Shown here piece by piece: positions 5,100-44,864 of a DNA stretch of 64,000 nt. Source of the stretch: Olegusella massiliensis (GTDB taxonomy: Bacteria > Actinomycetota > Coriobacteriia > Coriobacteriales > Atopobiaceae). A program made the position numbers and the translations under genes. Each line of letters starts with the position of its first letter. Position 1 is the first letter of the stretch. The notes beneath the pieces are model-generated. The model made no database searches, was not told where the DNA came from, and was given only the letters and a program-made list of their open reading frames with translations. The stretch is from assembly GCF_900078545.1 (NCBI RefSeq), contig NZ_FLLS01000002.1, positions 1,311,404-1,375,403 on the forward strand, in the 5' to 3' direction.

Positions 5100-5207
5100 T
5101 TTTTGCTTAGTCCGTTTGGCGAGAGTTTGAAAGCAAGGTGTGTGGGTAAGTTTTATATTGGTTGTAAGAACGCGCGATGACGTGTTATTGATGAGAAATG
5201 AGAAGTT

Positions 5208-11199: not shown

Positions 11200-11227
11200 T
11201 TGCTACTCTTTAAGTTAACCTTATACT
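11200..11227 (+). promoter_or_regulatory. Promoter of feoA-feoA-feoB with TAAGTTAACC operator-like motif
   Basis: TTGCTA at 11200-11205 and TATACT at 11222-11227 are separated by 16 nt, giving a plausible sigma-A promoter. The spacer contains TAAGTTAACC at 11211-11220. Nearly the same decamer occupies the same place in two other promoters of the window (23297-23306 and 32257-32266). It resembles one half of a DtxR/IdeR-type iron box. The start codon of the first feoA lies about 55 nt downstream of the -10. Confidence 0.5.
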
Positions 11228-11285
11228 ACTATGAGTTAAGACTGGCGAACATGTCTGAAGGGGTTTCAGATGCTGAGGAGGAAAC

Positions 11286-11567
11286 ATGGAAGTCGCTATG
11301 AATAGACTAGTTTCTGAGTCCGCTTCTCCTGCGACAAGTCCCGTAGGAGCGCAACTGCCGTTGAACTTGGTGCATGAAGGTGAAACTGTTCACGTCCTTA
11401 AGTTGCATGGTGATAAAGCAACCCGCCAGCATCTCATTGAATTGGGCTTTGTTGAAGGTAGTCAAATTAAAGTTATTACTCACTCTGCATCGGGTGTTAT
11501 CGTTAATATCAAAGGTGCCAACCTGGGCATTGACTCTAACATGGCTCGGCGCATTACTACGTATTAG
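11286..11567 (+). CDS. feoA: FeoA-domain ferrous iron transport protein (first copy)
   Basis: A 93-residue protein. Residues ~25-93 form an SH3-like FeoA domain (HLIELGFVEGSQIKVI...NIKGANLGID). The N-terminal ~22 residues are an extra Ser/Ala/Pro-rich stretch not found in minimal FeoA. AGGAGG at about 11276-11281 supports the ATG at 11286. FeoA is a small cytoplasmic accessory of the FeoB Fe(II) transporter. It is the first gene of a feoA-feoA-feoB operon. A small GC hairpin (GCCACA 11575-11580 / TGTGGC 11584-11589) follows the stop and could set relative expression. Confidence 0.9.
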   Translation: MEVAMNRLVSESASPATSPVGAQLPLNLVHEGETVHVLKLHGDKATRQHLIELGFVEGSQIKVITHSASGVIVNIKGANLGIDSNMARRITTY

Positions 11568-12012: not shown

Positions 12013-14274
12013 ATGGCAGATAAGACTTACATTGCGCTTGCAGGCAACCCTAACTGCGGCAAAACCACGCTTTTTAATGAGTTGACGGGCTCTAATGGCT
12101 ATGTCGGCAACTGGCCGGGTGTTACCGTTGAAAAAAAACAGGCGCCTTGGCTTGCCGATAGAAAGATTGAGTTTGTTGACCTTCCAGGAATTTATTCCTT
12201 GTCTCCCTATTCTCCCGAAGAGACGGTTTCTCGTGATTACCTGCTGGATAGTCGCCCTAATGCGACGATTAATCTTGTCGATGTAACTAATCTTGAGCGC
12301 AATCTCTATCTCACAACGCAGGTTCTTGAGACGGGCTGCCCTGTGGTAGTGGGCCTCAACATGTGCGATTTACTCAAAGAGCGTGGTGATGTTATTGATA
12401 CCAAAGCTTTGTCTGAGAAGCTTGGTGTGCCCGTGCTAGAGGTTTCAGCTCTGCACAATCAGGGACTGGACGAGCTGGTGAAGACTGCCGTTTCTGCTGG
12501 CAAAGCTGGCAAGGCTGCTACGGGTGTCAAATGTTTCCCCGCAGATGTAGAGGATGCGCTTAGCAAGATTGCAGCTCGTATTACGGGCAAATGTGCAGCT
12601 AACTTAGTGCGCTGGTATGCCATCAAGATCTTTGAGCGCGATGCGGTAGCCGTTGACTCACTGAAGCTTTCTCAGGCAATGCTTGCTGAGCTTGATGCAA
12701 TCATATCTACGGTTGAAGCTGAGCGTGATGATGCTGCTGAAGACATCATTGCTTCTGAGCGTTACGAGTGGATTGCTGGTGTTATGGATGCCTGCGTTAA
12801 AAAGGCACCCAAAAAGCTTACGCGCTCTCAGAAGATTGACAAAATTATCACCAATCGTTTTTTGGGTTTGCCTATCTTTATGCTCGTTATGATTGGTGTG
12901 TATTGGATTGCCATCTCGACTGTTGGTACAGGAGCTACCGACTGGGTTAATGACAATCTCTTTAGCGACGGCTGGGAGCTCTTTGGCATGGCCATGCCTT
13001 CAATTCCAGCTGTTGTGACGGGCTGGCTTGAGGCAGCGGGCGCAAGTGCGCTGGTCACCAGCCTTGCAGTTGATGGCGTTGTTACAGGTGTTGGTGCTAT
13101 TTTGGGCTTTGTACCTCAGATGACCGTACTGTTTGTCTTGCTTTGCTTCCTTGAGGATTGCGGCTATATGAGCCGCGTTGCCTTTGTTATGGACCGCGCA
13201 TTCCGTCGTTTTGGTTTGTCTGGCAAGTCGTTTATTCCTATCTTGATTAGCTCTGGCTGTGGTGTCCCCGGTGTTCTTTCGACCAAGACAATCGAAAACG
13301 AGCGTGATCGCCGCATGACCGCTATGGTTACGACTTTTATTCCGTGTAGTGCCAAACTGCCCATCATTGCTCTGCTTATGGGCGCACTGATTGGTGGCGT
13401 TAAGGCATGGTGGATTGCGCCATTTTTCTATTTCCTTGGTGTGCTTGCGGTTATTGTGTCTGCCATCATGCTCAAGAAAACCAAGCCCTTCTTGGGTGAG
13501 CCTGCTCCCTTTGTGATGGAGTTGCCTGATTACCACTTCCCCTCGATTAAGTCTTGGTTCTTGCATGTGTGGGAACGCGTTAAGAGCTTTATTGTCAAGG
13601 CAGGTACCATTATCTTTGCGTCAACGGTAGTGGTGTGGTTCCTTTCCAACTTTGGTTTTGCTGGGTGGGAAGGCGGCAGCGGTGCTTTTGGGTACCTGCC
13701 TGGCATGGAGGGCGCTCCCGATGAGTTTATTGACTACTCTGTGCTTGCCACTTTCTCTGGTCTCATTGCTTGGATTTTTACACCTTTGGGCTTTGTCAGC
13801 TGGAAGGCAACTGCTATGTCCGTTATGGGACTAGTTGCCAAGGAAAATATTGTTTCTACCTTTGCCACGCTTTCGTCTTTGGGTGATGCAGGGGAAACTG
13901 ACCCCTCCATGTGGGTTGCCTTTGGCCAGATGTTTGCTGCGAATGGTGTGGTCAATACCGGCGCGATGCTTGGTTTTGTTGCCTTTAATATGCTCTGCGC
14001 ACCCTGCTTTGCTGCCATGGGTACCATCAAGCGTCAGATGGATGATATTAAGTGGTTCTGGGCAGCGATTGGTTATGAGTGCCTCTTTGGTTGGGTTGTC
14101 GGCATGATAATCAATCAGCTCTATGGTCTGATTGTTTACGGCAGCTTTGGTTTTTGGACGCTGGTGGCGTTTGTGTTGCTCGCAGCTATGTTGTTCCAGC
14201 TCTTCCGCCCGGTGCCTACGCATGAGCATAAGGACAACAAAATCCTGACAAAGCTTAGCGAGCAATCCCAGTAA
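12013..14274 (+). CDS. feoB: FeoB ferrous iron transporter (GTPase-coupled)
   Basis: A 753-residue inner-membrane protein that imports Fe(II). The N-terminal G domain shows G1 GNPNCGKTT (residues ~11-19), G3 DLPGIYSLSP (~57), G4 NMCD (~117) and an effector region (NWPGVTVEKK). A helical GDI region follows. From residue ~280 on there are multiple transmembrane segments with the Cys-containing Gate motifs (SGCGVPGVLSTKTIENERDRR and PCSAKLPIIALL). The length is typical. It is the last gene of feoA-feoA-feoB; no feoC is seen. A strong intrinsic terminator lies 40 bp downstream. Confidence 0.97.
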   Translation: MADKTYIALAGNPNCGKTTLFNELTGSNGYVGNWPGVTVEKKQAPWLADRKIEFVDLPGIYSLSPYSPEETVSRDYLLDSRPNATINLVDVTNLERNLYLTTQVLETGCPVVVGLNMCDLLKERGDVIDTKALSEKLGVPVLEVSALHNQGLDELVKTAVSAGKAGKAATGVKCFPADVEDALSKIAARITGKCAANLVRWYAIKIFERDAVAVDSLKLSQAMLAELDAIISTVEAERDDAAEDIIASERYEWIAGVMDACVKKAPKKLTRSQKIDKIITNRFLGLPIFMLVMIGVYWIAISTVGTGATDWVNDNLFSDGWELFGMAMPSIPAVVTGWLEAAGASALVTSLAVDGVVTGVGAILGFVPQMTVLFVLLCFLEDCGYMSRVAFVMDRAFRRFGLSGKSFIPILISSGCGVPGVLSTKTIENERDRRMTAMVTTFIPCSAKLPIIALLMGALIGGVKAWWIAPFFYFLGVLAVIVSAIMLKKTKPFLGEPAPFVMELPDYHFPSIKSWFLHVWERVKSFIVKAGTIIFASTVVVWFLSNFGFAGWEGGSGAFGYLPGMEGAPDEFIDYSVLATFSGLIAWIFTPLGFVSWKATAMSVMGLVAKENIVSTFATLSSLGDAGETDPSMWVAFGQMFAANGVVNTGAMLGFVAFNMLCAPCFAAMGTIKRQMDDIKWFWAAIGYECLFGWVVGMIINQLYGLIVYGSFGFWTLVAFVLLAAMLFQLFRPVPTHEHKDNKILTKLSEQSQ

Positions 14275-15641: not shown

Positions 15642-15876
15642 TCTTAAGTTTTCTATCAAGCAGAGCTTCTCAGTTATTTTGATACCTATTTTTAAAGTAT
15701 GCGCAGGGGGCTGCCGCTGGTAAAAAGACTCCTGTTTAAGAAGTGAGAAAGAGCTTAAATCATGTTACCTCTGGTATACTTATTGAGTTAGTTATAGAAA
15801 ACTTATGAGTGGGTGAGAAACAATCTTTCATTTAGAGTACTTCTCAGCCATACTCGCAGCGGAATAGGAATTGACT

Positions 15877-17604
15877 ATGGGTGATACCAGGAAAACTAAT
15901 TCCTTTATGACGCAGAAGCTCTGGGAACTCACAGCGCAGACCAGTTGCCAAAAAAGGGCAGTGGTCGCTGCAGCCATGCTTGTAGTGACAGGTGTGGTGT
16001 GCATACTTGTGCTTCAATTGCCTCAACTCAAATCTGTTCAGGCGCAGGGGAGAAGGCCTGTTACCACTTTAAGCACCAAGCAAAACAATGCCACGCAAAG
16101 CGCTGTCGCCACCCAAGCTGACTTTTCACAAGCAACAATACCTCAGGAAAAGTCCGAAACCGTAACAGTACAAGCGGCTCCTGATGGTAGTTTTCACGAT
16201 ATACGTGTAGCGGTTCAGCTCACCAACCCCAGCAGTGCAAAAACCCTGCGTGACCAGTCAAATCTTTCTGAACTCGAAGAAGATGAAACGAACGCTCGGC
16301 CTACAAAAACAGCTCAAGGCCTGCTGTGGTCAAGTGGGGAGCCTACCCTCAAGTACAAAGGTAAATCCACACAGCAGCTGCCTTTTGCTCTGCGGATGAG
16401 TTATGAGCTTGATGGCAAGACAATCACTGCCAACCAACTTGCAGGCAAAAGCGGGCACGTTAAGATTTGCTACCAATTTGAAAATCTTACAAGTAAAGAT
16501 CCAAAGCACTGCGTGCCTTTTGTTGCACTTTCTGCTCTTATGCTTGATGGCGAGAAGTTCAGTAAAGTGCAGGTCAGCAATGGTAAGTCGATGGATATGA
16601 ACGAGCGTATCATGGTAGTTGGATATGCCATGCCCGGTTTGCAGGAAGGTCTTCATCTCAAAGGAGATACCCAAGATATCCCCTCATCATTCACCATCGA
16701 AGCTGATGTTAAAGATTTTGCACTTGATACTGCTGTGACACTGGTTTCAACTGATGCTCTCAATGATTTCAAGCTTGAATTTGGTGAAGATGCACGTGAC
16801 TCAATGGACAAACTTAAAGATGCCAGCTCACAGCTTACATCTGGTTCGCAGTCACTTGCTGATGGTATGGACAAGCTGAGTTCAGGTGCAGGTACTTTAT
16901 CTGATGCCATAGTAACAGCTCAAACGGGTGCATCTCAGCTCTCGGAAGGTGTGGATAGCTATACGAGTGGTGTTGATCAAGCAGCCAAGGGGGCTACAAC
17001 TTTGCAAGCTGCACTTGATGCGGCTGTAGAGGAGGCACAGTCCCAGGCGGCAGTAGCTCAGGACACTCTTTCTCAGCTGCAAACGCAGTATGCAGCAGCG
17101 TATGAAGCAGTCCTTGCCGACCCGAACCCCGAAAACCTCGCTGCACTACATGAGGCGGTCCAGGCGCTTGCTCATACATCAGGGATTGCGGGCCAGGCGG
17201 CAGGTGCAGCAGCAGCTTTACAAAATGACCAGCTTACGCAGGGCATTTCTTCGCTGAATACGGGTTTGGCTAGGCTTAGCGCTAACAGTCAGCAGCTCAA
17301 AGATGGTGCATCCCAGTTGAACGACGGTCTTTTGCAGTTAAGTGATGCGAGCGGCGCGCTTGCAAAGGGTACCGACAAGGCAGCAGAAGGATCCTCCGCG
17401 CTTGCCGAGGGCTTCTTGCAGCTCGACAAGCAGGGCATTCAGCGCATCGTCAGTCTATATGAAGACGATGTCGTTGGCCTTCGTGATCGCATAAAGTCGC
17501 TGCAAGCAGCAGGAAAACGCTATGACACTTTCAGCGGTATTGAGGCTGGCACCAAAGGCAGCGTGCGCTTTGTAATCAAGACTGCAGCCATTGGCCTAGA
17601 TTAG
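15877..17604 (+). CDS. YhgE/Pip-like single-pass protein with extracytoplasmic coiled-coil repeats
   Basis: A 575-residue protein with one N-terminal transmembrane helix (about residues 28-50) and no other clear membrane span. The middle (~60-280) is a beta-rich extracytoplasmic domain. Residues ~300-520 are built of Leu/Gly-spaced helical repeats of the form LxxGxxxLxxG, as in the coiled-coil part of YhgE/Pip proteins. ATG 15877 has AGGAA upstream; TTG 15871 is an alternative. It is followed after 7 nt by an ABC ATPase and a large FtsX-type permease, so it probably works as the periplasmic/cell-wall partner of that transporter. The cargo is unknown. Confidence 0.7.
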   Translation: MGDTRKTNSFMTQKLWELTAQTSCQKRAVVAAAMLVVTGVVCILVLQLPQLKSVQAQGRRPVTTLSTKQNNATQSAVATQADFSQATIPQEKSETVTVQAAPDGSFHDIRVAVQLTNPSSAKTLRDQSNLSELEEDETNARPTKTAQGLLWSSGEPTLKYKGKSTQQLPFALRMSYELDGKTITANQLAGKSGHVKICYQFENLTSKDPKHCVPFVALSALMLDGEKFSKVQVSNGKSMDMNERIMVVGYAMPGLQEGLHLKGDTQDIPSSFTIEADVKDFALDTAVTLVSTDALNDFKLEFGEDARDSMDKLKDASSQLTSGSQSLADGMDKLSSGAGTLSDAIVTAQTGASQLSEGVDSYTSGVDQAAKGATTLQAALDAAVEEAQSQAAVAQDTLSQLQTQYAAAYEAVLADPNPENLAALHEAVQALAHTSGIAGQAAGAAAALQNDQLTQGISSLNTGLARLSANSQQLKDGASQLNDGLLQLSDASGALAKGTDKAAEGSSALAEGFLQLDKQGIQRIVSLYEDDVVGLRDRIKSLQAAGKRYDTFSGIEAGTKGSVRFVIKTAAIGLD

Positions 17605-17611
17605 CAAGACG

Positions 17612-18379
17612 ATGGGAAACACTATGCTTGACCAGGAAATGACCAAAAATCAGTCATCTTTCACTGAGCCCTTCACAGACGCTTATGTGAGCGTCTCACG
17701 CTTGTATAAGTCCTATGGTACGGGCGATGCGCATATCACCGTTCTCGACGGTATCGAGACAAACATCAACAAAGGTGAGATGTGCGTTTTGTTAGGTCCA
17801 TCAGGCTCGGGAAAGTCAACTTTTCTCAATCTATTAGGAGGTCTTGAGCAAGCAGATCACGGGAGCATCCGTATTGCTCATACGGATATTTGCCAGCTCA
17901 ATAGACGTGATCTTATTGAATATCGTCGCCGTGAACTGGGGTTTGTCTTTCAGTTTTACAATCTGCTGCCAGACTTGACGATTCGTGAAAATGTCGAAGT
18001 GTGTGCGCATCTGAGCAAAAATCCGCTGCCCGTAGATGAGCTGCTTGACCGCTTAGGTATTAGGGCGCAGGCAAAGAAATTTCCACGTCAAGTATCGGGT
18101 GGGCAACAGCAGCGTTGTGCAATTGCTCGTGCGCTTGTCAAACGTCCAGGCTTGCTGCTTTGCGATGAGCCTACGGGTGCACTTGATTATGAAACCTCCC
18201 TTGATGTACTTGATGTACTCGAGCGCATGAACAAAGAGTTTGGTGTGACGATGGTTATCGTGACGCATAATGATGCAATTGCGCAGATGTCTGATCGTGT
18301 TATGCGCCTGCGTGAGGGCGCACTTGTGCAAGACAAACGTAATACTCAACGTCTGCACGCCTACGATTTGAGCTGGTAA
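17612..18379 (+). CDS. ABC transporter ATP-binding protein (MacB/LolD type)
   Basis: A 255-residue ATPase with Walker [10 protein letters not shown], the Q-loop [15 protein letters not shown], signature VSGGQQQR, Walker [13 protein letters not shown] and the switch His in VIVTHN. The sequence is typical of the MacB/LolD/FtsE branch that drives FtsX-type permeases. It lies between the YhgE-like coiled-coil gene and the permease with very short gaps (7 nt and 6 nt), so the three form one operon. ATG 17612 has no strong ribosome binding site; ATG 17624 is possible. Confidence 0.93.
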
Positions 18380-18385
18380 ACGCCT

Positions 18386-20749
18386 ATGTCTCCCTTAAAG
18401 CATCGCATTTTGCGACAACTCAAAAATAACTTTGGCAAGTATCTTGGAATCTTCCTGATGATGGCGTTTATGATTGCGTATATCTCGGGTTTTTTAACCG
18501 CGGCAAGTTCCATTCACACCCAACTTGTTGAATTGCCTGAGCGTTACCATCTAGAAGATGGACGCTTTACCGTAACGCACAAGTTAGATGAGCGCCAGAT
18601 GAGTGCTGCCGAGAAAGGTCGTTTTTCTTGGCTGGATCGTTTGACCCTATCTTTGGCCGAAGAGGACACAAATCTTGATAATTATGAGCAGCTTACGGTT
18701 TATCCGCTCTTCAGCCACGATCTTAAAGCGACGATTCCACATGACCCCGTCAAAAATAAGCGACCTATTAACATGCGCATTTATGCCGCGCGTGACAAGG
18801 TTAATCTGCCGCAGATTCATGTAGGGACACTGCCTAAGACCGATGATGAGATTGCCATCGATGTTACCTTTGCGCGCAACCATCAACTCAAACCTGGTGA
18901 TAGTTTTAATCTTGCGGGGCACAAGCTGCGGGTAAGCGGCACCGTGACACTGCCTGATTACACCACACTTTTTGAGAAGAATTCCGACTTTGTGATGGAT
19001 GACTTTACATTTTGTGTGGGCGTGCTGACGCCACAGGGGTATGCGGCTTTTGCAGACCAGCCCGAAACTTATACGTACGCTTATAAATTTAATACGACAC
19101 AACTCAATTTAGCGCAACGTACCACAGCCGAGAGAAACTTGCTGCGTGCACTATCACTTGCCGATGCCCATGTTACTGACCTTGTGGACGTTACATCCAA
19201 TCAAGGAGTGAACTTTGCTCCCAAGGATACTGAAGGCGATTCGCAAATGTGGCAGGTTCTTTACTACATCATTGTGATAGTTATGGCATTCATTTTTGTG
19301 GTGCTTACGCGCGCGAGCATTGAAGCCGAATCTCCCGTCATTGGTACGTTATTGGCATCGGGCTACAGACGCATAGAGCTTATGCGTCACTACGTTATTT
19401 TGCCTATGCTCGTTGCTATTGCTGCAGCTATTGTGGGAAATTTGACTCAGTTTGTCTTTATTCGATTTACCTATGACATCTATAGCAGAAGCTATAGCCT
19501 GCTGCCCTTTGACCTAAAGGTTAATCCAGGAGTTTTCTTTCAAGTAACGGTAATTCCTGTGCTCTTACTTTTTGTCATTACCGTGCTTGGCTTAGCTTCA
19601 AAACTCAAGTACACGCCACTGGCCTTTTTGCGGCACGAAGCTACGCGTGTCCGCCGAGGTCATGGTTGGCCTCTACCTGCACGTTGGCCTTTCTTTACTC
19701 GTCTGCGCCTACGTGTGTTATCCAATAACATTGGCAGCGCATTCACTATCTTCTTTGGTATCTTTGCGACAGGAATTTTGCTGATTATGGGCCTCGGCAT
19801 GATGCCAATAGTCGAGCATATGGCAGAGAAAATGGCTGATGCTATGCCCGCTCAGCATGTTTATACTCTGCGTCGTTCTGTAGAGTTGCCCGCTGAGGAC
19901 GCAGCACTCGCATATCAAGCAGAAAAAGTTGAATTTGCAACTCTTCAGGTTTCCAAAAAATGGAATTGGGGCCCGATGGATATTACCACCTACGGCATTG
20001 ATGCTCAGGGCCCTTATTGGAAGGATTTTGATGTACGTGATGGAAAAGTTGTTATTGGTGGTGGGTTAGCACAAAAGTCTGACCTTGCCGTGGGTAGCAC
20101 ACTTGCATTGCGTGACGCTTATCAGGACAAAAATTTCTCGGTAGTCGTCTCGGCAATTAGTGATAATAAAATCGATACGAATGTATATATGAGTCGTGAA
20201 AAGCTCAATGAACTGCTCGGCAACAAGGCAGTAGATTTCAATGGTTGGGTATCCAATAAAGATCTGCATTTTGACAAATATGATGTGTTGTCTGATTTGA
20301 CGCCAGACGGTGCGGGTAAGATGGCTGACCAGATGCGTGCATCGATGGGTAGCATGATGAACTTAATCGTATCAGCAGCGCTTATTATTTATGCCATTGT
20401 GATTTATTTGTTATCAAAAACAGTGCTTGAACGTAGTTCACGTGCAATTTCTCAACTCAAGGTATTTGGTTACCGCAGTGGTGAGTTAAGCCGTGTGTAT
20501 ATCCATGCAATTAGCCTGTGCGTGATTTTGTCGCTGATATTGACAGTTCCTGTAATAAAGCTTGCCTTTACAGGGATTTGCGAACTGATCTTTATGGATT
20601 ACGATCTTGCGCCCGAGATTGTATTGCCGCCCATGCTGTATGTACAGTACATACTCATTGGCCTCAGCTGTTATGCGGTGGTAGCCATTGCCAATCATGT
20701 GCATTTGTCGCGTGTGCCGTTAGCTGTTGCACTCAAGAGTCAGGAGTAA
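18386..20749 (+). CDS. Large FtsX/MacB-type ABC permease
   Basis: A 787-residue permease with one N-terminal helix (about residues 15-38), a long extracytoplasmic domain (~40-280), a block of FtsX helices (~290-420), a second extracytoplasmic domain (~470-650) and a final FtsX block (~655-770). This is the duplicated-FtsX architecture of Gram-positive exporters that act on antimicrobial peptides or lipoproteins. It pairs with the ATPase just upstream (6-nt gap). There are no neighbouring two-component genes, unlike classical bacitracin-type modules. The substrate cannot be named. Confidence 0.88.
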   Translation: MSPLKHRILRQLKNNFGKYLGIFLMMAFMIAYISGFLTAASSIHTQLVELPERYHLEDGRFTVTHKLDERQMSAAEKGRFSWLDRLTLSLAEEDTNLDNYEQLTVYPLFSHDLKATIPHDPVKNKRPINMRIYAARDKVNLPQIHVGTLPKTDDEIAIDVTFARNHQLKPGDSFNLAGHKLRVSGTVTLPDYTTLFEKNSDFVMDDFTFCVGVLTPQGYAAFADQPETYTYAYKFNTTQLNLAQRTTAERNLLRALSLADAHVTDLVDVTSNQGVNFAPKDTEGDSQMWQVLYYIIVIVMAFIFVVLTRASIEAESPVIGTLLASGYRRIELMRHYVILPMLVAIAAAIVGNLTQFVFIRFTYDIYSRSYSLLPFDLKVNPGVFFQVTVIPVLLLFVITVLGLASKLKYTPLAFLRHEATRVRRGHGWPLPARWPFFTRLRLRVLSNNIGSAFTIFFGIFATGILLIMGLGMMPIVEHMAEKMADAMPAQHVYTLRRSVELPAEDAALAYQAEKVEFATLQVSKKWNWGPMDITTYGIDAQGPYWKDFDVRDGKVVIGGGLAQKSDLAVGSTLALRDAYQDKNFSVVVSAISDNKIDTNVYMSREKLNELLGNKAVDFNGWVSNKDLHFDKYDVLSDLTPDGAGKMADQMRASMGSMMNLIVSAALIIYAIVIYLLSKTVLERSSRAISQLKVFGYRSGELSRVYIHAISLCVILSLILTVPVIKLAFTGICELIFMDYDLAPEIVLPPMLYVQYILIGLSCYAVVAIANHVHLSRVPLAVALKSQE

Positions 20750-22314: not shown

Positions 22315-22411
22315 TGCGCAGTCGAGGGTAAAGCATTAATGTAGGCGGGTATACTTTCGCCAGAATTATGAGCGAGGCTTTGTTCTCGTTTTGCTATGGA
22401 GGTTTGCTACT

Positions 22412-23194
22412 ATGGACTCTGCAATTGTTATTGGTGTGCTCATTCCCTTTTTAGGTACATCGCTGGGCGCAGCGTGCGTCTTTTTTATGCGCAACAATCT
22501 TTCCGATACTGTAGACCGAATACTGACTGGCTTTGCTGCGGGCGTTATGGTTGCGGCATCGATTTGGTCACTGATTATTCCTGCCATTGAGGGTTCAGCA
22601 TCGTTGGGTAAATGGGCATTTTTACCAGCCTTTTTTGGATTCTGGTTGGGGATTTTATTTTTGCTCTTTTTAGATCATGTCATTCCACACCTTCATGCGC
22701 GTGCAAATGAAGCAGAAGGTCCTGTTTCTAATCTGCGCCGTACCACAATGATGGTGCTTGCCGTTACCATGCACAATATCCCTGAGGGAATGGCCGTTGG
22801 AGTTGTTTATGCAGGCATGGCACTTGGTGGAGCAGGAATTACTGCCTCTGCTGCGGCTGCACTTTCTTGGGGTATTGCAATTCAGAATTTTCCCGAAGGG
22901 GCCATTGTATCGATGCCTTTGCACGAAGAAGGGGAGAGCAAACTCAAAGCATTTGCGTTGGGTGTGCTGTCTGGTGTGGTAGAACCCATCGCTGCAGTTA
23001 TTACTCTGTTTGCAGCAGAACAAGTCGTTGTTATTATGCCCATCCTGTTGTCTTTTGCGGCGGGTGCCATGATGTATGTTGTGGTAGAAGAGCTGATCCC
23101 AGAAATGAGCGCGGGCAAGCATTCTAATGTTGGCGTGCTGGCATTTGCTCTCGGCTTCACTATTATGATGGCGCTTGATGTCGCTTTGGGTTAA
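22412..23194 (+). CDS. ZIP-family divalent metal transporter (ZupT/GufA type)
   Basis: A 260-residue protein with eight predicted membrane helices. The two metal-site motifs are clear: MHNIPEGMAVGV near residue 119 and NFPEGAIVSMPL near 158. Family members import Zn(II), Fe(II) or Mn(II). A His-containing cytoplasmic loop (HVIPHLHARANE) lies between helices 3 and 4. ATG 22412 is favoured by ATGGAGG ~9 nt upstream; TTG 22391 is an alternative. A minor hairpin in the ~95-bp gap from the antiporter may reduce read-through. Confidence 0.92.
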   Translation: MDSAIVIGVLIPFLGTSLGAACVFFMRNNLSDTVDRILTGFAAGVMVAASIWSLIIPAIEGSASLGKWAFLPAFFGFWLGILFLLFLDHVIPHLHARANEAEGPVSNLRRTTMMVLAVTMHNIPEGMAVGVVYAGMALGGAGITASAAAALSWGIAIQNFPEGAIVSMPLHEEGESKLKAFALGVLSGVVEPIAAVITLFAAEQVVVIMPILLSFAAGAMMYVVVEELIPEMSAGKHSNVGVLAFALGFTIMMALDVALG

Positions 23195-23286: not shown

Positions 23287-23315
23287 TTGACCCAAATAAG
23301 TAAACCATGTATAAC
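23287..23315 (+). promoter_or_regulatory. Promoter of DUF3793-flavodoxin with TAAGTAAACC spacer motif
   Basis: TTGACC (23287-23292), a 17-nt spacer and an extended -10 (tgTATAAC, 23310-23315) form a near-consensus promoter. The spacer holds TAAGTAAACC (23297-23306). The promoter at 32247-32275 has almost the same spacer and the same -10, and the feo promoter carries TAAGTTAACC at the equivalent place. Just downstream is an inverted repeat, TATAAC / GTTATA with a 6-nt gap, that overlaps the -10. Confidence 0.65.
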
Positions 23316-23356
23316 TATCTTGTTATAAGTAAGCGTTAGTTAACAAGGGAGAGGGC

Positions 23357-24118
23357 ATGGGAGACTCACTTTTGCTGGGCACGTGCTATCATCCTGAGGT
23401 GCTCAATAGCTTTGCCAGCTCAAATCCCGATTCTAACGGTGAAAGTATTCATCAACATGAGAAGACTGAAGCAGCGCTCGCTCGTGAGCTCGTGGGTCGT
23501 CTTGTAGTGGGAGCAGCGGGGGTTATTTCTGGGATAAAACCAGCATCTTTAGTAAATTATGTCCCCCATGTTCTTGAGTTAAATGGAACTCATCCGCGTG
23601 CAGCACGTGCAGCAGAGCGCAAAGCTATTTGCTGTTGTGCGCGAAATCTCGTTCGCTTTGGCTTGCGTTTGATTGTGCTGGATCGTCGTGGTGGTAGAGT
23701 AGTCCTCTTTATATATCGTCCCTGTGCTTTGAAGCAAGTACTTACTGATTCTAAGGTGTGTTCTCTGCTTACTGCTACAGGTTACGATATTCGTTCGCTT
23801 GACACGGTGATCTCTACCCTGCGCCAGCGTATGGCAAATTACTATGGTGCAGCCACTCATTGTGCGGCAAGCTTTCCGCATGAAGTTGGTCTTTTGCTGG
23901 GTTATCCCGCTGAAGATGTTCGAGGTTTTATGGCTGGCAAAAAAGAAGTATGCCGAGGCCCTTGGAAAGCTTATGGCGACGTAAAAGCTGCACAAGCTCG
24001 CTTTCACTGTATTGCCGCCTGCGAACGGCATTGTCGTGAGCGCTTTGCTGCAGGTGAGTCCTTTGCAGAATTGCTTGCTCAGCCAAGTGTTATGCACATT
24101 CTACAGTCTGTCCTGTAA
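23357..24118 (+). CDS. DUF3793 family protein
   Basis: A 253-residue cytoplasmic protein of unknown function. The C-terminal half carries the family hallmark FPHEVGLLLGYPAEDVRGFM. It is cysteine-rich for its size, with clusters around CCCARN and AACERHC, which may bind metal or an Fe-S cluster (inference). ATG 23357 follows AGGGAGAGGG. A flavodoxin gene begins 79 bp downstream; this linkage is common for DUF3793 and suggests a shared, iron-linked role. The promoter upstream shares its operator-like motif with the feo operon. Confidence 0.8.
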   Translation: MGDSLLLGTCYHPEVLNSFASSNPDSNGESIHQHEKTEAALARELVGRLVVGAAGVISGIKPASLVNYVPHVLELNGTHPRAARAAERKAICCCARNLVRFGLRLIVLDRRGGRVVLFIYRPCALKQVLTDSKVCSLLTATGYDIRSLDTVISTLRQRMANYYGAATHCAASFPHEVGLLLGYPAEDVRGFMAGKKEVCRGPWKAYGDVKAAQARFHCIAACERHCRERFAAGESFAELLAQPSVMHILQSVL

Positions 24119-24197
24119 TGACCATAGTAAGTAGGTTATTTGGTATCAATTCGCACACGCGAGGTACATGTCGAGAGTCCTTTGATTGGAGAAACAA

Positions 24198-24608
24198 ATG
24201 AGCAAACTGGCAGTTGTGTATTGGACAATGACTGGCAACACCGAAGCTATGGCCCAGGCCGTAGCTGAAGGTGCGACCGATGCAGATGTTATTGCTGTCG
24301 CCGACTTTAGTGCTGATAAAGTTGCAGACTATGATGCTTTTGCGTTTGGCTGTCCTGCGATGGGCGCAGAGGAGCTTGATACTGACGAATTCGAGCCTGT
24401 TTGGGATGAGTGCTGTCCTGAGTTTGGTGACAAGCCGGTTGCTCTGTTTGGATCTTATGACTGGGGTACTGGCGAATGGATGGAGACTTGGAAGTCCCAT
24501 GCCGAGGAGGCTGGTGTCCAGGTGGTTGATACCGTTATTGCCAACCTCGAGCCTGATAATGATGTAATTGAGGCTTTGAAGAATCTAGGCGCAAAGCTCT
24601 CTGCCTAA
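24198..24608 (+). CDS. Flavodoxin
   Basis: A 136-residue FMN-binding electron carrier. The phosphate-binding loop is TMTGNTEAMAQAV near residues 9-21. The isoalloxazine loops are near FGCPAMGAEELD and FGSYDWGTGEWMETW. ATG 24198 follows TTGGAGAA. Flavodoxins replace ferredoxin under iron limitation, which fits the DUF3793 neighbour, the shared promoter motif with feo, and the Fur-family gene immediately downstream on the opposite strand. A bidirectional terminator separates it from fur. Confidence 0.93.
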   Translation: MSKLAVVYWTMTGNTEAMAQAVAEGATDADVIAVADFSADKVADYDAFAFGCPAMGAEELDTDEFEPVWDECCPEFGDKPVALFGSYDWGTGEWMETWKSHAEEAGVQVVDTVIANLEPDNDVIEALKNLGAKLSA

Positions 24609-24750: not shown

Positions 24751-25176
24751 CTAATCGTTCTGCTTTGCCATGCATTCTTCGCAGGTGCCATAAAACACGG
24801 TCTGCCACGGATCAATCCTAAATCCATGCTCTTTTTCGATATGCTCGCGAATTCCAGATAGCTCATCACAGTGCAGGTGAATGAGCTTGCCACATTCGCG
24901 ACAAAGACAGTGAAAACAGGCTGGCTCGTCGTGATTGTTCTGATCGCCCACGTATTCATAGCACGCAGCACAACCACGAGCATCAGGCATTTTATGTACC
25001 TTACCCTCACCCTCAAGTTGTGTAAGCGTACGATATACCGTTGCAACACTGGTAGCATAGCCGTCCTCAGCAACGCTTTGGACAAGAGCTTGGGCAGTGA
25101 TATGATTGCCAGCATTTTTTTGAAGTGCAGAAAGAATTGCGTCACGTTGTTTGGTTTTGTAGCGCTGCCTTGCCAT
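24751..25176 (-). CDS. Fur-family metalloregulator
   Basis: A 141-residue protein with an N-terminal winged helix (KQRDAILSALQKNAGNHITAQALV...ATVYRTLTQLEGEGKV). The C-terminal metal/dimer domain is rich in His/Cys (HDEPACFHCLCRECGKLIHLHCDEL) and ends with CEEC, so it has the two CXXC pairs of the structural zinc site. Fur, Zur and PerR cannot be separated by eye. The start is ATG 25176, preceded by GAAGG; the longer open frame to 25260 lacks a ribosome binding site. It is convergent with flavodoxin and divergent from the YcxB-like gene. Confidence 0.9.
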   Translation of the reverse strand: MARQRYKTKQRDAILSALQKNAGNHITAQALVQSVAEDGYATSVATVYRTLTQLEGEGKVHKMPDARGCAACYEYVGDQNNHDEPACFHCLCRECGKLIHLHCDELSGIREHIEKEHGFRIDPWQTVFYGTCEECMAKQND

Positions 25177-25331
25177 ATTTGCCTTCAACTTTCTAGTTAT
25201 CACACGACAAATTTTAGCGGTTGAATCGTTGAATTTGAAAACGGTTTCATATCGTAGCACGGCGTAAGATTAGCTAAACTAAAACAAGCAACTCTTTGCA
25301 TAATTCGTATATGCCAAAACGGGGAGTTCTT

Positions 25332-25859: not shown

Positions 25860-27468
<1,609 letters not shown>

Positions 27469-28467: not shown

Positions 28468-28983
28468 TTACATTGGCAGAGTAGGAGCAACAAAAGTTCT
28501 CGTTTGGTATTCGCGATCCAGCGCAAAGAGACCTTGTGGCGTGGTGCCGAAGAGCTTCATGTTAGAAATCACCTCGGCAGCCTGGGCCTCTTCTTCGCCC
28601 TGCTCTTTGATAAACCAATCCAGCATCTGCATCGTGCGGAAGTCATTAACCTCTTTGGCAGTGGCATAGCAGTCATTGACAAGTGAGGTGACATATTCCT
28701 CGTGTTTGAGGCCCTCTTCCAACGGCTCAAGATCGTTCTCAAATGTCTTGGTGGGCTCCTCAAGAGCAGACATCTTGACATTCACACCGTTATCAAGGAG
28801 GTAACGGCGCAAAATCTTGGCATGAGCAACTTCTTCTTGAACCTGAATCATGTACCAGTTGGCAAAACCCTTAAGACCGCGCATCTCATAATAATCCGCG
28901 AAAGTTAGGTAGTAATACGCCGACCACAGCTCCCTGTTGATTTGATAATTGAGTTTCTCGGCGACCTTTGCATCGAGTGCCAT
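28468..28983 (-). CDS. ftnA: Ferritin (bacterial non-heme, FtnA type)
   Basis: A 171-residue four-helix protein that oxidises and stores iron. Ferroxidase ligands are in place: NRELWSAYYYLTFADYYE (helix A Glu), VQEEVAHAKILRRY (the Glu-Glu-x-x-His helix B motif) and KEQGEEEAQA (helix D). There is no heme-ligating Met pattern, so it is ferritin rather than bacterioferritin. It is monocistronic with its own terminator. With Feo import and the Fur-family regulator, it completes an iron uptake-storage-sensing set. Confidence 0.95.
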   Translation of the reverse strand: MALDAKVAEKLNYQINRELWSAYYYLTFADYYEMRGLKGFANWYMIQVQEEVAHAKILRRYLLDNGVNVKMSALEEPTKTFENDLEPLEEGLKHEEYVTSLVNDCYATAKEVNDFRTMQMLDWFIKEQGEEEAQAAEVISNMKLFGTTPQGLFALDREYQTRTFVAPTLPM

Positions 28984-32053: not shown

Positions 32054-32219
32054 AATGTCATCTCCTTTTTGCCGCTTTAGTTAGCTTAGCAAATTGGGGT
32101 GATGTATCTGTTGTTTGATAAGAAAAAGTGCGGGGAGGATAGGGGAGAGGTAACGAAGAGCTGCAGTGGTGAAAGGCTGCATATTTATAGAACAGCTCTT
32201 CATATGAAAGCCCTCCTCA

Positions 32220-32241
32220 ATTCCTACTAATTTTTAGGAAT
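32220..32241. promoter_or_regulatory. Inverted repeat upstream of the small-protein promoter
   Basis: ATTCCTA (32220-32226) and TAGGAAT (32235-32241) are a perfect 7-bp dyad with an 8-nt centre, ending 5 nt before the -35 box at 32247. It is a candidate regulator site and does not look like a terminator, since no U-tract follows. Confidence 0.4.
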
Positions 32242-32246
32242 AATGC

Positions 32247-32275
32247 TTGACAGCAATAAGTAACCCATGTATAAC
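32247..32275 (+). promoter_or_regulatory. Promoter of the 27-residue peptide gene with TAAGTAACCC spacer motif
   Basis: Perfect -35 TTGACA (32247-32252), 17-nt spacer, extended -10 tgTATAAC (32270-32275). The spacer is nearly identical to that at 23293-23309 (15 of 17 positions) and contains TAAGTAACCC. Such spacer conservation is not needed for a promoter and therefore suggests a bound regulator. Confidence 0.7.
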
Positions 32276-32305
32276 TTTTATTGTCAAAAACAGAAGGAGG
32301 CTAAG

Positions 32306-32389
32306 ATGATTCAAGCAGTAATTTTTGCAGTAGCTGTAAGCGTCTTGGGCCTCGCGATTCATAATTTTTGTTTGAGACAAGTTGTTTAA
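32306..32389 (+). CDS. 27-residue hydrophobic small protein
   Basis: A short ORF from ATG 32306 to TAA 32389. It encodes an almost wholly hydrophobic peptide (MIQAVIFAVAVSVLGLAI, then HNFCLRQVV), i.e. one membrane span with a basic end and one Cys. AAGGAGG ends 5 nt before the ATG, and a consensus promoter 30 bp upstream and two hairpins downstream make a complete transcription unit of ~200 nt. It is too short for standard gene callers. The shared promoter motif with feo and DUF3793-flavodoxin suggests an iron-linked small membrane protein (inference); a type I toxin or a dual-function sRNA is possible. Confidence 0.65.
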   Translation: MIQAVIFAVAVSVLGLAIHNFCLRQVV

Positions 32390-32400
32390 ACCTGGCTGAG

Positions 32401-32423
32401 GCTGTGGACCCTCTCCCCACAGC
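32401..32423 (+). other. Hairpin after the small-protein gene
   Basis: GCTGTGG (32401-32407) and CCACAGC (32417-32423) form a 7-bp stem, 12 bp after the stop codon and before the terminator. No U-tract follows, so it is a transcript structure and not a terminator. Confidence 0.6.
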
Positions 32424-32438
32424 GATAAGCCCTTCATA

Positions 32439-32481
32439 ACCGCCGACGTTCCCCCTTTCTTGCGTCGGCGGTTTTATTTTT
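32439..32481 (+). terminator. Rho-independent terminator of the small-protein unit
   Basis: ACCGCCGACG pairs perfectly with CGTCGGCGGT around a pyrimidine-rich loop; TTTTATTTTT follows. Confidence 0.92.
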
Positions 32482-32630
32482 GCTGAGGTTTTGGGATATA
32501 GGCAAAAAAGTGTCTGATTGTATTTCTTATATATGGCAGATAAGAAAATCTATCTCGGAGCAGCAGCTGTTAAGTATTTTGTCAAGGAAGTTGCTGCTTA
32601 TAAATATAGTAAGAATATCAGAGGATAGCT

Positions 32631-32860
32631 ACCCCTCTTCGCTCTGAGGGCCGATGTGCGCCATTGCCCCGTTTTTGAGTCTCAGTGTTTTCGCTGGTAA
32701 AAGACCTATTTTGAAAGGCAGCTTTTTTCCCGTGTTTTGCCGCACCTTTTAGTTTTAACAAACTCGCTGATAGACGACGTACGCCCGTATTTCAAACATA
32801 AATATCTTATCCAATAACAGCTCTAAATGGCGCACATCGGCCCTCAGAGCGAAGAGGGGT
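32631..32860. mobile_element. MITE-like element with 35-bp perfect inverted repeats
   Basis: Positions 32631-32665 and 32826-32860 are perfect reverse complements over 35 bp (ends ACCCCTCTTCGCTCTGAGGG). They enclose a 160-bp AT-rich centre without a convincing ORF. ATCAGAGG occurs on both flanks (32617-32624 and 32864-32871) and may be an 8-bp target duplication, although it is separated from the repeats by 6 and 3 nt. The element lies in the long gap between the small-protein unit and the zinc-ribbon gene. It carries no transposase, so mobility would need one in trans. A long stem-loop RNA is the alternative. Confidence 0.55.
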
Positions 32861-36974: not shown

Positions 36975-37345
36975 AGCTCGCGCTCCTTCCTTGATAGTGT
37001 GATGAATGCCAATAAATTCAGAAGGAGCCCCTCGCGCAGTGCTTGGTTCTGGTGGAAAACGGATAGGGGAAGCCCAAATCGATAATCCCTTCCGCTCATT
37101 ATGTCTTCGTTTGAGTGCGCGACGTCCTTAATGAATAGCTTACATCCTTTGCCACGCTCCACAACTGGTTGCTCATGTAGCGTAGTGTGGCGTTTTCATG
37201 ACTCGGGTTTCTGGCAGCAGATGGACTGCTATTCCAAACTCCACAGATAAAAAACACTCATGTTTGCAAGCATTGCAAATAATCCTATATCCTCATCTAC
37301 CTGCGAGTTTGCGATGGACTGCGGGGGCGGTATAATGGCATCGAC
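36975..37345. other. Gene-free stretch before the TPP riboswitch
   Basis: No supported ORF. A loose inverted repeat GCCAC (about 37149) / GTGTGGC (about 37187) is followed by GTTTTC, a weak terminator candidate on the plus strand. The 3' end holds the thiamine-operon promoter. Confidence 0.4.
37309..37336 (+). promoter_or_regulatory. Promoter of the thiamine-precursor uptake operon
   Basis: TTGCGA (37309-37314), 16-nt spacer and a perfect TATAAT (37331-37336), about 10 nt upstream of the TPP aptamer. Confidence 0.75.
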
Positions 37346-37431
37346 AAGGGGGGCTGGCGCACGCCGGCTGAGATTGGGTCCACTGCGACCCTGACCCGTA
37401 GACCTGATCTGGGTAATGCCAGCGTAGGGAC
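37346..37431 (+). ncRNA. TPP riboswitch (THI element) aptamer
   Basis: The conserved CTGAGA (37368-37373, after GCCGG) and the ACCTGATCTGGGTAATGCC core (37402-37419) are both present with the expected spacing. The P1 arms GGCTGGC / GCCAGC close the element. A terminator hairpin follows directly, so TPP should stop transcription before the uptake operon. Confidence 0.96.
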
Positions 37432-37442
37432 CAGCGTATACG

Positions 37443-37472
37443 AAGGGTCCCGCAATGGCGCGGGGCCCTTTT
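37443..37472 (+). terminator. Riboswitch-controlled terminator
   Basis: AAGGGTCCCGC and GCGGGGCCCTT form the stem, followed by TT and further pyrimidines. It lies 12 nt after the TPP aptamer and 23 nt before the first start codon. Confidence 0.8.
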
Positions 37473-43965: not shown

Positions 43966-44427
43966 CTAGCAGTCGATGTGGTTGATCTGGGTGTTAGCAG
44001 GATGTGCTTCGGATCCGCCCGTAGGTAAAATGTCTGCCAAAGTTTTACCGTCCAAATACTCAGCGGTGACCTGGCCGAGACCTACCCATACTTTTACCGT
44101 AGGACAATCAAAAACCTGCGGGCAAATCTCATCGCGGGTACACTGTAAACACGCTACCGGCGCCAGAGAACCCTCGGCAGCACGCAATATTTCGCCGATG
44201 GTGTATTCCTCGGGTTTGCGTGTCAAACGATAGCCGCCGCCCTTACCGCGCTGACTATCAACGTAGCCTGCTTTGTGCATGAGCGCAATAACCTGCTCAA
44301 GATACTTACGTGAGATCTTTTGCCGCTCAGACACATCCCCAAGCGAAATCCATCCTTCATGCGTTGCCAAATCGCTCATTGCGCGTAAGGCATAGCGCCC
44401 CTTGGTGGAGAACATATTTGCAGCCAT
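43966..44427 (-). CDS. Rrf2-family Fe-S-type transcriptional regulator (IscR/SufR-like)
   Basis: A 153-residue regulator. The winged helix is FSTKGRYALRAMSDLATHEG...ISRKYLEQVIALMHKAGYVDSQRGKGGGY. The sensing region carries three clustered cysteines (CLQCTRDEICPQVFDC, four counting the first), compatible with a [2Fe-2S] cluster as in IscR. It is the last gene of sufC-B-D-S-U, two nt after sufU, so it probably gives feedback control of the operon by cluster status (inference from gene order). Confidence 0.9.
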   Translation of the reverse strand: MAANMFSTKGRYALRAMSDLATHEGWISLGDVSERQKISRKYLEQVIALMHKAGYVDSQRGKGGGYRLTRKPEEYTIGEILRAAEGSLAPVACLQCTRDEICPQVFDCPTVKVWVGLGQVTAEYLDGKTLADILPTGGSEAHPANTQINHIDC

Positions 44428-44429
44428 GG

Positions 44430-44864
44430 CTAGTCCCCCTTTTCCAGCATTTCTTCAAGCGTGCGCCACGCCAATTCTGCACATTTTACACGCGCAGGCA
44501 TATGCGAAATATCCTTCAAGCTCGCTGCATCTTCGAGTAGAGCAAGTTTGTCAGGATCAGCTTCGGTGCCACGTACCATGTCCATAAACAAGCGACACAA
44601 CTCGATTGCTTGTTGGGGTGTTTTGTCTGTTATAAGGTCAGCCATCATATCAGCTGATGCCTGGCTGATTGCACAGCCACTACCCTGATAAGCTGCTTCC
44701 TCAATTACTCCGTCACTGCCGATTTTGACGGAAAATACCAGGTCATCACCACAGCTCGGGTTAACACCTTCATGGGTGTGTGTGGGGTTGTCCATCTGAT
44801 ATTTGTAGTCGGGATGGGCAACATGGTCCATGAATGCGGCATTGTAAAGATTAACGGTTTCCAT
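44430..44864 (-). CDS. sufU: SufU Fe-S scaffold / Zn-dependent sulfurtransferase
   Basis: A 144-residue NifU-N/IscU-fold protein. The conserved Cys residues are in NPSCGDDLVFSVKI, GSGCAISQASADMM and IELCRLF, the SufU three-Cys pattern with the GCAIS motif. SufU receives sulfur from SufS via its zinc site. It overlaps the end of sufS by 14 nt. Confidence 0.94.
   Translation of the reverse strand: METVNLYNAAFMDHVAHPDYKYQMDNPTHTHEGVNPSCGDDLVFSVKIGSDGVIEEAAYQGSGCAISQASADMMADLITDKTPQQAIELCRLFMDMVRGTEADPDKLALLEDAASLKDISHMPARVKCAELAWRTLEEMLEKGD

Follow-up and report, generated by a model that had tools for sequence, protein, structure and literature searches.

A palindromic operator at iron-uptake and related loci of Atopobiaceae, and a putative, apparently undescribed family of small RNAs

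Genes and promoters of the window

The window, which is the whole stretch of 64,000 nucleotides of Olegusella massiliensis DNA that was analysed, includes the ferrous iron genes feoA and feoB, an ABC/FtsX operon, a DUF3793 gene followed by a flavodoxin gene, a Fur-family regulator gene, an enolase open reading frame and a short unit at 32.3 kb (Table 1). The genome that contains the window (G000) is 1.81 Mb in two contigs, and its closest sampled relative, G001, is 83% identical in DUF3793 and 91% identical in FeoB, values from which the genome is taken to be that of an Atopobium-like species.

Table 1. Coordinates of genes, promoters, operators and RNA features in the window, with operator ranks from the genus-excluded matrix
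Feature	Position	Strand	Evidence or remark
feo operator O1, AAGTTAACCTTATACTACTA	11212..11231	+	Rank 7; kept in G001, variant in relatives
feo operator O2	11233..11252	+	Rank 9; kept in G001
feoA	11286..11567	+	Pfam
feoB	12013..14274	+	Pfam
Operator before ABC/FtsX operon	15762..15781	+	Rank 6; kept in G001
Second operator before ABC/FtsX operon	15785..15804	+	Rank 5; kept in G001
ABC/FtsX operon	15871-20749		Pfam
Sigma-70-type promoter, DUF3793-flavodoxin	23287..23315	+	Sequence, pattern match
DUF3793-flavodoxin operator O1, AAGTAAACCATGTATAACTA, over spacer and -10	23298..23317	+	Rank 2 of 63,981; kept in G001
DUF3793-flavodoxin operator O2, just 3' of predicted start	23327..23346	+	Rank 4; kept in G001
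DUF3793 gene	23357..24118	+	Pfam PF12672, E 3.8e-40
Flavodoxin gene	24186..24608	+	Pfam PF00258
Fur-family regulator gene	24751..25260	-	Pfam PF01475
Weaker second enolase site	26043-26062		Rank 8
Operator before enolase	26087..26106	+	Rank 3; kept in G001
Enolase open reading frame	26152-27468		eno with operators and small RNA also in relatives
Sigma-70-type promoter, small RNA/peptide unit	32247..32275	+	Sequence, pattern match
Operator of small RNA/peptide unit, AAGTAACCCATGTATAACTT	32258..32277	+	Rank 1; kept in G001
Predicted small RNA, ~199 nt (start set from the -10, end at T-run)	32283..32481	+	Fold z -4.1
27-codon open reading frame with Shine-Dalgarno, inside small RNA	32306..32389	+	Similar frames in G001, G002, G004
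Conserved RNA module	32388..32481	+	z -6.5, covariation, covariance-model match 32388-32479
First hairpin of RNA module, loop ACCCUCUCC	Loop 32408-32416	+	
Terminator hairpin of RNA module, C-rich loop 32450-32461	32438-32473	+	

The DUF3793-flavodoxin promoter consists of TTGACC (23287-23292), a 17-bp spacer and TATAAC (23310-23315), with TAAGTAAACC at 23297-23306, and the promoter of the 32.3-kb unit has TTGACA (32247-32252), a 17-bp spacer and TATAAC (32270-32275), with TAAGTAACCC at 32257-32266. The feo promoter has TTGCTA (11200-11205), a 16-bp spacer and TATACT (11222-11227), with TAAGTTAACC at 11211-11220. A preliminary description had pointed to an operator-like ten-mer, TAAGTWAMCC, in these three iron-related promoters, and all three copies were found on reading the sequence. 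The DUF3793 and peptide spacers agreed at 14 of 17 positions rather than at the 15 given there, and the feo copy, which had been placed at almost the same offset, was present behind a weak -35 element in a spacer one base shorter.

The bare ten-mer was not enriched, as six exact copies occurred genome-wide versus nine of the reversed pattern, and the seven copies in the window with one mismatch allowed were at the level of shuffles. Three of the six exact copies were the promoters described above and the other three, by our reading of their positions, lay within open reading frames or at the 3' end of one. The ten-mer was ruled out as a stand-alone motif on this basis, and significance rests instead on the full palindrome. 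The composite pattern TTGAC-N4-ATAAGTAAMCC-ATG-TATAAC, with up to three mismatches, was found in two places in the genome versus none for the reversed pattern, and these matches were confined to the DUF3793 and peptide/small RNA promoters.

A palindromic operator and its targets

Twenty-three DUF3793 upstream regions were collected from relatives and 22 were used for motif training, with the G012 region left out because no site was seen near its DUF3793 gene; the sites in G012 instead precede the upstream enolase. Unseeded expectation maximization on the 22 regions returned WAAGTTARCYATGGWTTACT with a log-likelihood of 207, compared with 61-66 for three shuffled sets. The operator is a palindrome of approximately 20 bp, AAGTTARNCATGGYTAACTT, with the core TTARC-N4-GYTAA. 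The spacer element of the preliminary description is real but represents merely the left half of this inverted repeat, which extends through the -10, and what had been called an extended -10 is its right half. At the DUF3793 and small RNA promoters the right half reads TGTATAACT, so that the extended -10 there is operator as well as promoter.

A symmetric, seeded matrix of 14.8 bits was built from 18 regions of other genera, with those of the genus itself (g1) deliberately excluded. The nine best of the 63,981 window positions all precede five operons, and all nine are conserved in G001. Two copies are frequent, at distances of 21 bp before feo, 23 bp before ABC/FtsX, 29 bp before DUF3793 and 44 bp before enolase, and span the -10 and the predicted transcription start. 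At the level of sequence, the operator, its conservation and its targets are clear.

A regulon pattern search, in which palindromes were counted twice, matched 29 places in G000 versus 14 for the reversed pattern and 24 versus 31 in G001, and AGTTAR-N6-YTAACT with one mismatch was no commoner than its reversed control. Weak single matches were not counted as targets because the motif-only search matched its reversed control and, since the counts were near those of reversed controls, conservation in G001 rather than number is the evidence for wider targets, the two genomes being close. Pattern search and Pfam pointed to sites in both genomes at ZinT-ZnuA (1250526, with a second G000 site at 1250480) and at ABC exporters (1159994 and 203210). 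Others present in both were located at a TetR gene accompanied by an ABC exporter (82085; 82805), at a methyltransferase gene (557237) and beside a short cysteine-containing open reading frame (197979), which by eye we take to be of the FeoB-associated type. The proposal of a common repressor for iron promoters is supported as to a shared operator and, probably, a single metal-dependent repressor. The regulon extends beyond three units and, with ZinT-ZnuA, ABC exporters and enolase among its members, is not related to iron alone. The ZinT-ZnuA target fits zinc as well as iron.

Three other loci had no strong operator of their own in the window scan. These were a ZIP metal transporter gene (22391-23194) directly before DUF3793 and beside a Na/H exchanger, a ferritin-like gene (28468-28983, minus strand) and an Rrf2 regulator with a NifU-like gene (43966-44864, minus strand).

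Distribution of the operator

A matrix score of at least 13 was reached in 46 of 52 regions before feoB, one from each of 52 genomes, compared with five of 118 length-matched control segments, three of the five being promoters of DtxR genes. Because some of these genomes had also supplied DUF3793 promoters for training, this test is independent by gene and not by genome. Most genomes of the order contain both DtxR and Fur. At a shuffle p of 0.05 or below, a liberal threshold that 17 of the 118 control segments also reached, the feo site was present in 33 of 36 genomes with both regulators, in all twelve with DtxR and without Fur, in none of one with Fur and without DtxR, and in two of three with neither. 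Both DtxR-minus genomes with a site are, or probably are, contig breaks: in G055 the DtxR gene behind feoB is cut short by the contig end (N-terminus, E 1e-32), and in G057 the contig ends at the end of feoB while its family mate G041 has DtxR. The remaining DtxR-minus genomes among those tested, G026 and G036, had no feo site.

Outside Coriobacteriia, 39 of 63 DUF3793 loci reached p 0.05 (25 reached a score of 13) versus 15 of 16 inside, and the sites beyond the class suggest that the operator probably predates it. In these other classes the site was present at p 0.05 or below in five of seven DUF3793 loci with a Fur-like neighbour versus five of nine with a DtxR neighbour. Three DUF3793-feoB loci of Planctomycetes (Thermoguttaceae; L240, L260 and L261) carried a related palindrome, AATTTAG-N6-CTAAATT, near position 5125 and directly before a DtxR gene, and two of the three reached p 0.05.

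A predicted small RNA at 32.3 kb

The 32.3-kb unit had been described as encoding a 27-residue peptide, and while that open reading frame is present the predicted transcript carries a conserved structured RNA as well. The predicted 199-nt transcript folded better than all shuffles, and prediction and covariation both indicated single-stranded C-rich loops and an intrinsic terminator. A covariance model built from ten sequences gave 24 matches among 60 relatives, of which 21 had at least one (E 0.01), and was matched in 83 of 140 genomes of the family (E 1e-4). Across 23 aligned copies, 92.6% of cells paired and 12 of 13 pairs changed on both sides, values obtained from an alignment fitted to the model, which favours structure; none of 500 shuffles reached the observed values and slid controls were 27-71% paired. 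Helix 1, a helix distinct from the terminator, had changes on both sides in all six of its pairs.

For 19 of the 24 model matches an operator lay no more than 230 bp upstream, with one more at -245 in G004; the same held for 17 of 19 further RNA loci from other genomes, usually with two copies, and 28 of 6000 random 245-bp segments reached a score of 15. The matches in G018, G020, G024, G028 and G029, together with the first one of G030, are at DUF3793 promoters that had served for matrix training; the remainder of the 24 and all 19 further loci were independent. Sequence comparison shows how the RNA is structured and that it is tied to the operator; the transcript and its targets are what we infer. 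In several Olsenella the module sits between the operator and DUF3793. The operator-less matches in G012, G014 and G077 lie directly after an enolase gene, which is preceded by two strong operators in G012, by one weaker operator in G014 and by none in the stretch read for G077. Five loci of one genus have the order operator, small RNA, enolase, and with this association in relatives an operator before the window enolase becomes understandable. Three model matches occur within approximately 7 kb in G087 (C43:3093, 4524 and 9998) with several strong operators in the stretch (L390), and one locus of G029 (L324) combines DUF3793 and enolase similarity in one open frame of ~570 codons, either a fusion or a frame artefact.

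No Rfam covariance model matched positions 32100-32700 up to E 1, and at the gathering score the TPP riboswitch was the only Rfam match in the window and four relatives. The TPP riboswitch of the window (37337-37448, 58 bits) precedes an ABC transporter whose binding protein is NMT1/THI5-like.

The open reading frame with its Shine-Dalgarno sequence was present in four of five sampled genus members, G000, G001, G002 and G004 (27, 27, 31 and 31 residues), and missing from G003, and a scan of 12-60 codons found no conserved form in other genera. Its first 18 codons are identical in G000 and G001, and G002 and G004 differ by four synonymous and seven amino-acid changes, several of them I/V. These features suggest that the frame may plausibly be translated. 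The peptide had no Pfam match, on which ground a FeoB-associated protein was rejected.

A search for Shine-Dalgarno sequences complementary to the C-rich loop found nine places in G000 versus one with the reversed pattern and 14 versus two in G001, and eight and 13 of these loci, respectively, were translated. No visible enrichment for iron proteins and no metal theme were seen in the two genomes. The frames include some that by eye we take for serine hydroxymethyltransferase, for threonyl-tRNA synthetase and for a GntR regulator; one frame, in G001 alone, has by the same reading an Fe-S-like cysteine motif.

Candidate regulators and alternative explanations

The genome has a single DtxR-family gene (C2:1011106), which is outside the window and encodes a 155-residue protein with PF01325 and PF02742, the DNA-binding and metal/dimerisation domains, above the cut-off. 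The Fur gene of the window is likewise the only Fur match in the genome. Among the feoB-type matches listed, and by our own reading, at least 15 genomes had a DtxR gene no further than 2.5 kb from a feoB-type gene, and two had a Fur gene so placed. Three of 29 DtxR promoters scored at least 13, all three above 21, and the matrix scan found no strong site in the G000 DtxR promoter. Universal DtxR autoregulation was rejected for this reason. After three Fur loci without a readable start had been removed, one of 25 Fur promoters reached 13 (at 13.1) and none reached 15.

The one-dimer IdeR box, TTAGG-N4-CCTAA, is described as two 5-bp inverted repeats with 4-bp spacing (PMC8464063). As in the IdeR/DtxR box of that description (TTAGGTTAGSCTAACCTAA), the operator has TTA-rich inverted 5-bp repeats spaced 4 bp and is found in metal-uptake promoters; its repeats read TTAGS, but the fifth base is C rather than the G of TTAGG and its AAG/CTT extensions are conserved. 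Unlike the 19-bp double-dimer form, the sites are separate tandem palindromes and not overlapping dimers. The likeness to half of a DtxR/IdeR box rather than a Fur box noted in the preliminary description probably holds as to type; the palindrome is complete. The DtxR-family repressors of these genomes are short (mostly ~135-170 residues), unlike IdeR/DtxR. In the G000 protein, Asp30, Cys126, Glu129 and His130 align with Asp8, Glu99, Glu102 and His103 of BsMntR. This Asp/Cys/Glu/His mix is the one described for PgMntR (PMC4805248) and would allow Fe, Mn or both as the metal; from repressors of the PgMntR/BsMntR/TroR type the protein differs by having no FeoA domains and low similarity to solved members (best 49 bits). 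The TroR of T. denticola is reported to respond to both Fe and Mn (PMC2628430).

The Fur-family protein encoded beside the flavodoxin gene could instead bind the palindrome and repress the same units, as its gene, the sole Fur gene of the genome, adjoins the DUF3793-flavodoxin operon in G000 and G001, and in some Clostridia a Fur-like open reading frame occurs beside DUF3793 and a site. We consider this unlikely, as the site is not restricted to genomes with a Fur gene; the twelve Fur-minus DtxR-plus genomes that keep the feo site include G002 and G004 of the same genus, Fur promoters lack scores of 15 or more, and the palindrome is not a Fur box of the usual 7-1-7 form, for which the best window match is elsewhere. 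Fur is thus disfavoured as the common regulator inside the order, and outside the order the neighbouring gene does not discriminate. A sensor for zinc, or for a broad range of metals, that belongs to some other family, such as a MarR/AdcR-like protein, would account for ZinT-ZnuA and ABC exporters among the targets, and AdcR-type boxes also contain TTAAC/GTTAA half-sites. Such a sensor is distinctly improbable given that the most conserved targets are feo, flavodoxin and DUF3793, that the AdcR box as generally known has a different spacing and that gene neighbourhood favours DtxR.

Likeness between promoters could also arise by descent, with the two 29-bp promoters of DUF3793 and the small RNA being a recent duplication of no regulatory meaning. 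The two are far more alike than either is to feo, and in Olsenella the small RNA is directly before DUF3793, but the palindrome persists before genes unrelated to one another, and throughout the order, amid differing flanks, so that this reading is scarcely tenable. The 32.3-kb unit might be a small-protein gene with a terminator, its RNA conservation reflecting just terminator and leader structure, as the strong Shine-Dalgarno, the presence of the frame in most genus members and the I/V and synonymous changes would suggest. That would be surprising, because most other copies lack such a frame yet retain the operator, the hairpin with the C-rich loop and the terminator, and because the pairs changed on both sides include all those of helix 1. 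A DtxR-family repressor is the best candidate for the protein that would bind the operator; the repressor, its metal and the direction of control are what we infer from these comparisons.

Proposed model and significance

We give a probability of roughly three in four to the overall explanation, in which a metal-loaded DtxR-family repressor controls the palindrome and through it the iron-uptake and related genes and the C-rich small RNA. When Fe, or Fe and Mn, is plentiful the loaded repressor would occupy the palindrome over the -10 and the start and block RNA polymerase, and metal shortage would release it. Release would switch on feoAB, flavodoxin/DUF3793, the ABC/FtsX operon, ABC exporters, ZinT-ZnuA, enolase and the small RNA. 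By analogy with known small RNAs, its two C-rich loops may then pair with the Shine-Dalgarno sequences of other messages, which would be shut down and metal saved, and in this genus the RNA would also carry the short open reading frame.

The third unit looks like a metal-repressed small RNA of the FsrA/IsrR kind. FsrA and IsrR are described as Fur-repressed C-rich RNAs that pair with Shine-Dalgarno sequences (PMC9410917), and the shared features as given there are a promoter of a metal regulon, here a putative one, stem-loops with C-rich loops and a Rho-independent terminator. The RNA described here differs in having no Rfam relation found, in its probable DtxR control, in the short open reading frame in the genus and in its association with the enolase and DUF3793 genes. 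In Mycobacterium tuberculosis the RNA MrsI is predicted to be controlled by IdeR (PMC9410917) and resembles it by description alone as an Actinomycetota small RNA predicted to be under a DtxR-family repressor. The odds seem about even that these loci belong to a family of C-rich small RNAs, hitherto undescribed and repressed by DtxR, for metal sparing in Atopobiaceae, serving sometimes as the leader of an enolase or DUF3793 message or as its 3' end and in Atopobium having a dual function with a hydrophobic peptide of 27-31 residues.

No earlier description of a Coriobacteriia iron operator was found in open-licence PMC literature, nor, mostly as judged by listing, of this palindromic operator and small RNA, and the sole mention of DUF3793 in that literature looks unrelated. 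The analysis places DUF3793 in what would be a metal-starvation operon. For the Coriobacteriia, which are common gut and oral bacteria, it yields an operator that can be read from sequence, together with the candidate members of a metal-control regulon. With a proposed small RNA family that looks undescribed and has strong covariation, an iron-sparing response in the class would become directly testable.
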